DNA of 64,000 nt from Desulfuromonas sp. Its GTDB lineage: Bacteria; Desulfobacterota; Desulfuromonadia; Desulfuromonadales; UBA2294. Made by a program: the position numbers and the translations under genes. Shown one piece after another: positions 2,345 to 59,226 of the stretch (position 1 is its first letter; every line of letters begins with the position of its first letter). Under the pieces are notes generated by a model that saw only the letters and a program-made list of their open reading frames with translations, did not search any database and was not told the DNA's origin. Where the stretch lies: positions 1 through 64,000 of the forward strand of contig PKUH01000057.1 in assembly GCA_002869615.1 (NCBI GenBank). The letters are read 5' to 3'.

Positions 2345-3658
2345 TTACTTGATACCGGCAGCATCTTCCAGCATCGCGGTGGTCAGCGACTTCGGACGCT
2401 CGATGCCATAACCGAGGGCACGGTCCCAAGTGATATTGGCGAGGCAGCCGAGAGCACGACCGATACCGAACAGTACGGTGTAGAACTCGTACTGGGTCAC
2501 ACCGTAGTACCACTGGATGACACCGGACTGGGCGTCAACATTCGGCCACGGGTTCTTCGCTTTACCATGCTCGGTCAGAACGCCCGGAGCAACTTCGAAG
2601 ATCATCCGGACCAGCTGGAACAGCGGGTAGTCCTTGAGACCTTCGGTCTTCATGCAGAACTCACGCTGCGAGGTGTAACGCGGGTCGGTCTTACGCAGAA
2701 CGGCGTGACCGTAACCCGGGATAACCTGGCCGCTGTTGAGAGTGTCCCACAGAGCTTCCTTGAGCTTCTCTTCGGTCGGGACTTCGCCACCGAGCTGATC
2801 CATGAAGTTCTGGGTCCAGCGGAGAACTTCCTCGTTTGCCAGGCCGTGCAGCGGACCGGCGAGACCGTTAAGGCCGGCGCTGTATGCATAATAGGCGTCA
2901 GACAGGGCCGAAGCAACCAGATGCGTGGTGTGGGCCGAAACGTTACCCGACTCGTGGTCGGAATGGAGGATGAAGTACATCCGGGAAACATCCTTGTAAT
3001 CATCGCTCTGGCCGATCATGTGGGCAAAGTTACCGCCCATGTCAAGGCTCGGGTCGGCAGCGATCTGATCACCATCACGATATTTCATGTTGTAGATGTA
3101 AGCACCGATCGGGCCGAGTTTGGCCATCATGTTGGTGCAATCTTCCAGCATATCTTCCCAGCAGGTCATCTTGTTGAACTTGCCGTCACGATAGTTCTGG
3201 GCAAAGACCGAATCACGCTGCATAGCCAGAACGGCAGAGGAGAACATTGCCATCGGGTGTGCATCTTTCGGCAGAGCATTGAGAACGTCAATGACATACT
3301 GCGGAATTTCAGAACGCTTCTTCCAGTCTTCAACAACCTCCAGGGTCTGCTCCATGGTCGGAACGTCGCCGGTCAGCAGCATGTACCAGAAGCCCTCTAC
3401 ATAGGGATACTCACTCCCCGGAACTTTCGGCAGGGCTTCGAACGTCTCGGGAATGGTCTTGCCACGGAAGCGGATACCTTCCATCGGATCAAGATAGGAA
3501 ATGTCGGTGACGAGACATTTGACGCCACGGGCACCACCGATAGCCTGACCAATCGTAACGTCACCAAGCTTGACGTCAGCAAATTCCTTAACCAGTTTGG
3601 TTGTCCGCGGACGATGCTCATCAATTTTCTTGCGCAGAGTTTCCTTTAAAGTCGACAT
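2345..3658 (-). CDS. gltA: Citrate synthase, eukaryote-type
   Basis: A 437-residue enzyme condensing acetyl-CoA and oxaloacetate to citrate, the entry to the TCA cycle. Catalytic landmarks are visible: a His in HSDHESGN, the second His in GYGHAVLRKTDPR, and an Asp in the NVDAQSG region. The N-terminal helical extension and the PGYGHAVLRKTDPRY block resemble mitochondrial citrate synthases rather than the hexameric E. coli type. Citrate synthases of this kind are known from Geobacteraceae, where the cycle oxidises acetate. The gene has a strong ribosome site (GGAGAG) before ATG 3658 and its own terminator, so it is probably monocistronic. Confidence 0.95.
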   Translation of the reverse strand: MSTLKETLRKKIDEHRPRTTKLVKEFADVKLGDVTIGQAIGGARGVKCLVTDISYLDPMEGIRFRGKTIPETFEALPKVPGSEYPYVEGFWYMLLTGDVPTMEQTLEVVEDWKKRSEIPQYVIDVLNALPKDAHPMAMFSSAVLAMQRDSVFAQNYRDGKFNKMTCWEDMLEDCTNMMAKLGPIGAYIYNMKYRDGDQIAADPSLDMGGNFAHMIGQSDDYKDVSRMYFILHSDHESGNVSAHTTHLVASALSDAYYAYSAGLNGLAGPLHGLANEEVLRWTQNFMDQLGGEVPTEEKLKEALWDTLNSGQVIPGYGHAVLRKTDPRYTSQREFCMKTEGLKDYPLFQLVRMIFEVAPGVLTEHGKAKNPWPNVDAQSGVIQWYYGVTQYEFYTVLFGIGRALGCLANITWDRALGYGIERPKSLTTAMLEDAAGIK

Positions 3659-56632: not shown

Positions 56633-56956
56633 CTACTCAAGAGCATAGCCGGCCTTTTTCCAGCCATCGACGCCATCGAGCAAGGCGGCAACATTCTTGA
56701 AACCCTGGTTCTGGTATTCGGCTGCCCGACCGGCAGCGCTGTCCTCCTCCGGTTAGGCGCAGTAGAAGATCAACCCTTGCTCGATCCGAAGATCGGGCAA
56801 ACGAGCCTGGAAATCACCGTATGAAATCGCCCCGGAAAGATGCATCTTGTCGAACTTTTCATCTGAATCGTAGGCACAGACCAGCAGCGCTTCACCCGAG
56901 TTGACCCTTTTATACGCATCTTGCGGTGTCACTCTTTTAATATTGACCTGACTCAT
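56633..56956 (-). pseudogene. Rhodanese-like protein gene with in-frame UAA at the active site
   Basis: ATG 56956 (after GGGAGGT) opens a 67-codon frame. It encodes MSQVNIKRVTPQDAYKRV through HLSGAISYGDFQARL to LIFYCA. TAA (56753-56755) comes next, and the same frame then goes on PEEDSAAGRAAEYQNQGFKNV to DGVDGWKKAGYALE and a TAG stop. The joined product is a complete single rhodanese domain of about 107 residues. The stop lies two residues after the Cys of the active-site loop. A hairpin resembling a bacterial SECIS starts 15 bases downstream. It may be a decayed selenoprotein gene (UGA to UAA), a recoded one, or a simple nonsense mutation. Confidence 0.8.
56721..56737 (-). other. SECIS-like hairpin
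   Basis: On the minus strand, GCTGCC-GGTCG-GGCAGC: a 6-bp stem with loop GGUCG, starting 21 bases after the UAA. Bacterial SECIS elements have a short stem, a loop with an early G (GGUCU in E. coli fdhF), and lie about 16-37 bases past the Sec codon. The match may be chance. Confidence 0.4.
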
Positions 56957-57022
56957 GGTACCTCCCGTAAAATTCCGCTTGTTCTGTTTATAGAAGCATA
57001 GCATCAGACCGATCAAATTAAA

Positions 57023-57052: not shown

Positions 57053-57099
57053 TGCAAACAAAAAGGGACCTGCTTAAAAAGCAGATCCCTTTAACTTTC

Positions 57100-57122
57100 T
57101 GGTTGCGGGGGGAGGATTTGAA
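57100..57122. repeat. Partial tRNA-fMet 3' end (att-like direct repeat)
   Basis: These 23 bases are identical to 59150-59172, the CCA end, acceptor strand and T-arm part of the initiator tRNA gene. The copies lie exactly 2050 bases apart and bracket hipA-hipB. This is the footprint expected of site-specific integration at a tRNA 3' end. No integrase is present. Confidence 0.85.
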
Positions 57123-57310
57123 TTCCCCCACAGTCATTTATCTTACATGTCGATATTACAAAAACCTCTAAATATCAGCAAGTTAAAAAAAAGGGCCCTC
57201 CGGAATTATACGCCAAAACCCATACAACCCCACCTATCCCCACAGATCCCAGGAAAGTTTGAGGAAAGTTTCCTATTTAAAAGACAGCACCTATCCATCC
57301 ACTCACCAAG

Positions 57311-57461
57311 TTCACTATAGTGAATTTTTTTCTTGCAGACACACGCATTTTGGCTCACTATAGTGAATAAAAAGAGAAAAAGAGCAACTAAAAGACCCGC
57401 AGAAGTTCACTTAAGTGAACTAAAAAGACAAAAAAAGACAATTTCAAATCACTATAGTGAA
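57311..57461. promoter_or_regulatory. Four palindromic operators before hipA
   Basis: TTCACTATAGTGAA at 57311-57324, CTCACTATAGTGAA at 57354-57367, TTCACTTAAGTGAA at 57406-57419 and ATCACTATAGTGAA at 57448-57461. Centres are 43, 52 and 42 bases apart, close to whole helical turns. The last ends 4 bases before the hipA ATG. Three contain TATAGT, which can serve as a -10 box. HipB is the likely ligand. The AT-rich gap 57123-57310 has no gene; AGGAAAGTTT is repeated at 57251 and 57262. Confidence 0.85.
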
Positions 57462-57465
57462 CCAA

Positions 57466-58746
57466 ATGAACTGTCATATCGAAATATATCTAAACCACAA
57501 TTGGCATACAGCAGCAATATTTGAACCCGACCTCCAAACTCTAGAAAAAGGTGTAATGGGTGGCTGCCGACTTAATTATGACATAGATTTTGCTGTTGAA
57601 AATCTTGGGAACAAAAATGCCGAACTTATTCCGGGATTAACCGTTGGGTTCGAATTATATCGCTTCAAAGAATGGCCCGCTTTTTTGGTTGATCTCTTAC
57701 CAGCAGGAGCTGGTAGACGAGCCTGGCTAAAACGAATGCAAATCAAAACTGACGGACCACATGTTGAGTGGCATCTACTTTATAAAGGCGCAGGAAATCC
57801 GCCGGGGAATTTGCGGATAGCGGAAGCTGTCCCAGAACCGCCACCTGATCAATTTATAATCGGGTTCCCGAGACAAGACATCATTGACCAGCAAGAGGAC
57901 TTTCTTGAATACGCAGAAGAGCGCGGTGCATATGTAGCTGGCGCCTCCAGCGTTCAAGGCGAAGCGCCAAAATACATGTTGGTTGAAGACATCAAAGGGA
58001 TGTTTCATGCTGATGGTGCAATACCAGATGACAAAATAAAAAAATACTGGCTTGTAAAATACCCTAGAGGGAAACGTACCGATGACCGCAACCAATTGGT
58101 GTTAAAAAATGAAGCCCACTACCTGGAGGTAGCCAGAACATTTGGAATCAATGTCGGAGAAAAATTGACATATGAAAATGGGGCGTTATTTGTGCCCCGT
58201 TTTGACAGGAGAATTATTAACGGGAAAATAGACAGGCCTGGAATGCACAGCCTGTATGCCGTGGCTGAGATACCCGGGTATGGTGCAGCCGTTAATCACG
58301 ACATTTTCTGCGAAAAATTAGCCCGGGTTGTTACAAACCCGGGAAACGAAATCCGGGAATACATATTGAGGGACATACTAAATCTAGCCCTTCGCAATAC
58401 CGACAACCACGGTCGCAACACTGCAATAATGAGAGCGGGTGACCAAATCAAGTTGACGCCACTTTTTGATTTCGCACCAATGTTCCTTGATCCAGAGGGA
58501 ATTGGCAGGGTAACGCGATGGGAAGATGAACGCCCAGGAGAGCAGCCAGACTGGAACACTATATGCGACAAACTTCATTATGCCCTAGACCCTGAACAAA
58601 CCAAGAGATGGCTTCAGGGATACGCCAAAGACGTTGAACGACTTCCCGTGACCATGAAGGAATGCAATGTTGATGACGAAGTTACTGAAAAATTAACAAA
58701 ACGCATAGAGGCCGTTGCGAATAGTTTAAATGAAATTCGCCCATAA
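57466..58746 (+). CDS. hipA: HipA-type serine/threonine kinase toxin
   Basis: A 426-residue HipA. The N-terminal subdomain (1-100) is followed by a segment AGASSVQGEAPKYM (P-loop/autophosphorylation region), the catalytic LRNTDNHGRNTAIM with Asp313, and LTPLFDFAPMF with metal-binding Asp335. E. coli HipA phosphorylates glutamyl-tRNA synthetase; the target here is unknown. GTG 57457 lies inside an operator, so I prefer ATG 57466. Codon use is AT-rich, unlike neighbours, indicating transfer. The antitoxin gene follows, the reverse of E. coli hipBA order. Confidence 0.93.
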   Translation: MNCHIEIYLNHNWHTAAIFEPDLQTLEKGVMGGCRLNYDIDFAVENLGNKNAELIPGLTVGFELYRFKEWPAFLVDLLPAGAGRRAWLKRMQIKTDGPHVEWHLLYKGAGNPPGNLRIAEAVPEPPPDQFIIGFPRQDIIDQQEDFLEYAEERGAYVAGASSVQGEAPKYMLVEDIKGMFHADGAIPDDKIKKYWLVKYPRGKRTDDRNQLVLKNEAHYLEVARTFGINVGEKLTYENGALFVPRFDRRIINGKIDRPGMHSLYAVAEIPGYGAAVNHDIFCEKLARVVTNPGNEIREYILRDILNLALRNTDNHGRNTAIMRAGDQIKLTPLFDFAPMFLDPEGIGRVTRWEDERPGEQPDWNTICDKLHYALDPEQTKRWLQGYAKDVERLPVTMKECNVDDEVTEKLTKRIEAVANSLNEIRP

Positions 58747-58773
58747 AATGACACTGCCTCTTTGGGAGCAACT

Positions 58774-59073
58774 ATGAAACGACCAAGTGCTCAAGAAATG
58801 ACATTAATGAAAGAAGATCTTTACCTGGGGCTTGCAAAAGGAGAACTGAGCATAAGAGAAGCGACTCTTAAAATGCGAAAAATTCTGGGTATGACTCAAA
58901 AAGAGTATGCAAAAAAAATTGCCGGCGTATCACCTCGCATCCTAAGCGCTTTTGAAACTGGCACCGGAAACCCGACCCTGGCAACACTCGAAAAAATTGC
59001 AGCGCCATTCGGCCTTGAAGTGACATTCCTCCCTCCGGAGTCATGGCGGATTCATCCCCCGAACACAAAGTAA
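58774..59073 (+). CDS. hipB: HipB-type XRE antitoxin
   Basis: A 99-residue protein with an XRE helix-turn-helix (about 35-85: LGMTQKEYAKKIAGVSPRILSAFETGTGNPTLATLEKI) and an N-terminal helical extension. The C-terminus is a short Pro-rich tail (PPESWRIHPPNTK). It should bind HipA and the four operators. ATG 58774 has GGGAG upstream and lies 27 bases after hipA. Confidence 0.9.
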   Translation: MKRPSAQEMTLMKEDLYLGLAKGELSIREATLKMRKILGMTQKEYAKKIAGVSPRILSAFETGTGNPTLATLEKIAAPFGLEVTFLPPESWRIHPPNTK

Positions 59074-59075
59074 AA

Positions 59076-59106
59076 GGGGACAGGCACCTTTCCGGAGCCA
59101 GTCCCC
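59076..59106. repeat. REP-like palindrome, right copy
   Basis: GGGGACAGGCACC (59076-59088) pairs with GGAGCCAGTCCCC (59094-59106), with two A-A mismatches, around a 5-base loop. It lies two bases after the hipB stop and may also end hip transcription. It is the best-formed of three related palindromes in the window. Confidence 0.65.
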
Positions 59107-59108
59107 TA

Positions 59109-59142
59109 AAAAAAAGGACCTGCTTTTCCAGCAGATCCCTTT
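59109..59142 (-). terminator. Terminator of tRNA-fMet
   Basis: Stem AAAGGGATCTGCT/AGCAGGTCCTTT (one mismatch) with a U-run on the minus strand, 7 bases after the tRNA 3' end. A diverged copy is at 57064-57093. Confidence 0.8.
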
Positions 59143-59149
59143 ATTATTT

Positions 59150-59226
<77 letters not shown>

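Follow-up and report, generated by a model that had tools for sequence, protein, structure and literature searches.

A rhodanese-like gene of the selenoprotein type with UAA at its selenocysteine position: a probable fresh nonsense mutation in a redundant gene copy

The window, i.e. the entire analysed stretch of 64,000 nucleotides from Desulfuromonas sp., harbours on its minus strand a rhodanese-like gene whose reading frame is interrupted by a single TAA codon. The features of this locus are the following:

56633..56956, minus strand: rhodanese-like gene of the FYCxU selenoprotein type with one in-frame TAA, assigned from its read-through ORF, a PF00581 match and a sister gene with TGA
56753..56755, minus strand: TAA codon at the selenocysteine (Sec) column
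56759..56761, minus strand: TGC codon of Cys66, presumably the catalytic Cys in the rhodanese loop, assigned from the FYC-A-U motif
56721..56737, minus strand: bacterial SECIS (bSECIS) hairpin GCUGCC-GGUCG-GGCAGC with its loop at 56731-56727, assigned from geometry, energy and covariation
56960..56966, minus strand: intact Shine-Dalgarno-like GGGAGGT just 5' of the ATG, read from the sequence

Starting from the ATG at 56956-56954, the gene runs through 67 codons, the last of which encode ...LIFYCA, to the TAA at 56755-56753, and a further 39 open codons lead to the terminal TAG at 56635-56633. An earlier note on this DNA had described the frame as open on both sides of a TAA located two codons past the presumed active-site Cys, which is correct, as are its coordinates. 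The read-through product of 107 residues (MSQVNIK...LIFYCA*PEEDSAAGRAAEYQNQGFKNVAALLDGVDGWKKAGYALE) consists of a single rhodanese domain matching Pfam Rhodanese PF00581 over residues 10-102 with 29.8 bits, thus exceeding the gathering cut-off of 22.2 bits. In the alignment of the family Cys66 does not vary and stands two positions before the Sec column. With TAA and not UGA at the Sec position, the window copy lacks, in its present state, the codon expected of a functional selenoprotein gene.

Rhodaneses with a CxU motif are a known kind of selenoprotein, of which form 3 is described by the NCBIfam model NF041203 rhodanese_LYCAU (PMC13188914). The window copy shares with form 3 the single rhodanese domain, the active-site Cys and the Sec position at +2 but differs from it in having UAA where form 3 has UGA. 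A sister copy of the gene is present in the same genome, which is available as a draft assembly of 3.08 Mb in 121 contigs (98% complete). The sister is found on another contig (C91:98575-98895, L035), is 76% identical to the window copy and contains TGA at the same codon. Neither of the two reaches the curated NF041203 cut-off of 115 bits (44.6 bits for the window copy, 55 for the sister) and, since both score below it, they form a neighbouring FYCxU group beside NF041203. A second group of rhodaneses, characterised by the motif YC[A/T]U (L032, L033, L036-L039), likewise has TGA at this column and a hairpin at the same position; it is probably nearer to NF041203.

Within the family tree the window copy and the TGA copy are placed as sisters with a support of 0.94. 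Searches for homologues covered 98 relatives, 277 genomes of the class and 395 genomes of the phylum, these sets overlapping one another. Dozens of FYCxU homologues emerged from the searches at order, class and phylum level, and every one that was read or reported contains TGA at the Sec column, so that among all FYCxU homologues examined TAA at this column is unique to the window copy. In the three rows flagged as containing one TGA and one TAA (G170, G181, G256) the column itself is TGA, while the TAA is found further downstream. The observed TAA is separated from TGA by one step, a G-to-A transition. We would like to note that L082, a homologue in another genome, possibly represents another broken copy, as its TGA at the Sec column is followed by a TAA about a dozen codons on.

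The hairpin at 56737-56721 comprises a stem of 6 bp and a loop of 5 nt (GGUCG) with G at the first position; the distance from stop to loop amounts to 21 nt and the calculated energy to -11.0 kcal/mol. These values lie within the published bSECIS limits (loop of 3-9 nt, stem of 4-16 bp, distance of 16-37 nt, energy of -7.5 kcal/mol or below; PMC13188914), and the hairpin also has the G within the first two loop positions which, together with a distance of 16-37 nt, we used as the definition of a bSECIS. Regarded as a single sequence it is unremarkable, since 19% of the synonymous sequences encoding this peptide fold an equally stable hairpin and its fold z-score of -0.39 is not significant by shuffles. 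Its significance comes only through conservation and covariation in the homologues. The five loop-proximal pairs of the stem are formed in all 39 distinct sequences (100%). Across the stem, 22 cells are changed on both sides, and none of 500 shuffles matched this value or the covariation score. The most variable pair is C-G in 19 sequences, U-A in 16, U-G in 3 and A-U in 1. As both of its members are third codon positions, the protein sequence does not account for it, and the changes on both sides of the stem occur mostly at paired third positions. Because its pairs co-vary across the 39 distinct sequences, we regard the hairpin as a real bacterial SECIS, as which it is kept intact in the window copy. 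The geometry and bacterial SECIS spacing given in the earlier note (6 bp, loop GGUCG, 21 bases to the loop) are thus reproduced, with covariation now identifying the element as a conserved one.

The genome encodes a tRNA-Sec (C106:43545-43636) which scores 75.8 bits at a cut-off of 47 and carries the anticodon UCA. SelA-, SelB- and SelD-like genes lie directly downstream of it. SelB reaches 380 bits (cut-off 242), whereas for SelA and SelD the assignment comes from reading the neighbouring ORFs. SelD has its own in-frame TGA (MSGQVKLTSLSRTSG-U-AAKL; SGUAAKL). The selA, selB and selC genes which the earlier note proposed to look for are hence present, accompanied by selD, and with tRNA-Sec, SelA, SelB and SelD the genome contains all the components of the Sec machinery we had asked for. 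From the UCA anticodon, the adjoining selA, selB and selD genes and the in-frame TGA of SelD it is evident, on genomic grounds, that the organism decodes UGA as Sec. The other examined matches to the tRNA-Sec model are ordinary tRNAs. A tRNA-Sec decoding UAA by means of a UUA anticodon was found neither by a covariance search of the genome, nor by ARAGORN run on the best matches, nor by searching for the pattern of a UUA anticodon loop, the sole matches of this last search being one Leu-UAG and one Val tRNA; at 98% completeness of the genome this absence is not absolute. As the formate dehydrogenase matches in the genome have no in-frame stop and FlpD was not found there, the genome offers no internal controls other than SelD and the sister rhodanese. 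Taken together, TGA in the sister and in the homologues, the covarying SECIS and the Sec machinery of the genome support well that the window copy descends from a bacterial selenoprotein gene.

Apart from the stop, the TAA copy bears no measurable sign of decay. A comparison of the copies yields a dN of 0.163 for the part preceding the stop and of 0.154 for the part following it; dS is saturated. Compared with 47 outgroups, the TAA copy shows on average 3.5 private differences before and 2.0 after the stop, the TGA copy 3.6 and 1.2, so that the relative rates, with 5.5 and 4.7 changes, respectively, are nearly equal. Since there is no measurable excess of substitutions over the sister, constraint acted on the TAA copy for almost the whole period after the split of the two. 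The only departure at a column conserved to at least 90% which the sister does not share is D94 in the G-G motif, and two other homologues have D94 as well. The equal dN on either side, the near-equal rates and the intact SECIS and ribosome site argue for a young stop, and most likely the G-to-A change occurred very recently, although the same pattern would be expected if the base were an error or the codon were still decoded. Relatives do not bracket the age of the stop, since both rhodanese copies are absent from the same-genus and same-family genomes, in which, moreover, a synteny search via the neighbouring response regulator yielded only distant matches.

The explanation we favour, with a probability of roughly 0.78, is that a Sec-decoding bacterium has very recently acquired a nonsense mutation in a redundant copy of a selenoprotein gene. 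Accordingly worded as a sequence of events, the window gene would belong to a pair of sister genes encoding a small selenoprotein of the CxU rhodanese kind, and in it a single G-to-A transition has converted the Sec codon UGA to UAA. SelB and the Sec-tRNA-Sec with its UCA anticodon would be unable to decode UAA despite the intact SECIS, and translation would most likely end after residue 67 (...LIFYCA), leaving a product whose rhodanese domain is C-terminally incomplete. Termination is the most likely outcome because UCA could read UAA only with a mismatched middle base, and because UAA is a normal terminator here, ending 17 of the 47 long ORFs of the window. The TGA copy on the other contig presumably covers the function, and we infer that the living population genuinely carries the TAA. 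The suggestion of the earlier note that a selenoprotein was freshly lost through a single G-to-A change from UGA thereby gains support from TGA in the homologues, the selA, selB, selD and tRNA-Sec genes and the conserved SECIS.

The main rival of a nonsense mutation is a consensus or assembly error of one base, or a base contributed by a minority strain, in which case the true codon would be TGA and both copies working selenoprotein genes. The otherwise intact gene, its lack of excess substitutions and the equal dN on both sides would fit this assumption just as well, and the genome is a draft in 121 contigs. A single-base error at exactly the Sec codon is, however, rare a priori, the site is located in the middle of its contig (C57:56636-56956 of 97,313 bases) and, as read, lies outside any homopolymer; we therefore consider such an error unlikely. 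It is still more doubtful that UAA is decoded as Sec, be it via an altered tRNA-Sec or via miscoding by the UCA tRNA-Sec brought to the SECIS by SelB. Such decoding would account for the intact SECIS and the conserved downstream coding sequence, and according to a review some species, whose tRNA-Sec has the matching anticodon, use SECIS elements to recode ten sense codons as well as UAG and UAA (PMC10778597). In those systems, as here, a SECIS follows a codon other than UGA at the Sec position, but there the anticodon of the tRNA-Sec matches this codon, whereas the only tRNA-Sec found here reads UGA. Beyond the C-A mismatch at the middle position and the ordinary use of UAA as terminator, the sister copy and SelD of the same genome use TGA. 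True UAA-for-Sec recoding, which the earlier note had offered as its alternative, is consequently unsupported. That one organism would use both UGA and UAA, inserting Sec (or another amino acid) at UAA in a SECIS-dependent manner with a tRNA-Sec that reads UGA, we judge very improbable; if true, decoding of UAA would be a striking exception.

Hardly any more credible is the idea that the truncated product of 67 residues has been retained because it serves a separate function. The N-terminal half is intact along with the start codon and the ribosome site, as this would demand, but no other homologue ends at this point with a plain stop, part of the rhodanese domain would be missing, and the equal conservation of the part following the stop would be left unexplained. 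Finally, A-to-I editing by TadA would turn UAA into UIA, read as UGA, and so restore Sec insertion, such editing amounting to precisely the A-to-G change needed in the middle of the codon. Editing of mRNAs by TadA occurs in many bacteria but requires the motif YTACGAA, and a change of the +1 C abolished editing in a reported test (PMC12255301). The site in question, CCUAACC, does not contain this motif, for which reason we rejected editing as extremely improbable. A fresh and ordinary nonsense mutation is the reading we retain as the most likely one.

So far, the loss of bacterial selenoproteins has mostly been inferred from missing genes. Loss events in Deltaproteobacteria and Clostridia, for example, were deduced from the absence of the respective genes (PMC1794560). 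Both there and in the present case a selenoprotein gene would have been lost from a lineage which keeps Sec decoding, but while the genes are absent there, the broken gene persists here together with its SECIS. The loss thus seems to have been caught at its first step, with one base changed, SECIS and frame intact and the sister apparently intact as well. In the literature searched we found no bacterial selenoprotein pseudogene with UAA. For annotators it may be cautionary that UAA at a Sec column beside a good SECIS need not signify recoding.

A different peculiarity is observed in four homologues (L048, with the gene at about 2985-3315, L049, L129 and L130), in which TGA also replaces the codon of the presumed catalytic Cys. 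Their motif is FY-U-A-U or YU[S/A]U, encoded by TGA-GCA-TGA, TGA-AGC-TGA or TGA-GCC-TGA, and two Sec-type codons separated by one codon precede one SECIS. A rhodanese with UxU was not found in the literature searched.

With regard to the genomic surroundings, inspection by eye of the genes neighbouring the homologues of relatives revealed no obvious common partner. In the locus L053 (7576-10850) the TGA sister copy is divergent from a gene for a Fur-family regulator, which is followed by a catalase-peroxidase (KatG-like) gene, both recognised by reading; these neighbours at most hint at a redox role. Beside the rhodanese gene of the window, a direct repeat (86%; 57060-57122 and 59110-59172) takes in the 3' end of a tRNA-Met gene (59150-59226). 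Between the repeats a HipA-like gene (57457-58746) and an HTH gene (58762-59073), again recognised by reading, are preceded by four TTCACTATAGTGAA-like palindromes. The region 57060-59226 resembles a small element that has integrated at the tRNA gene.
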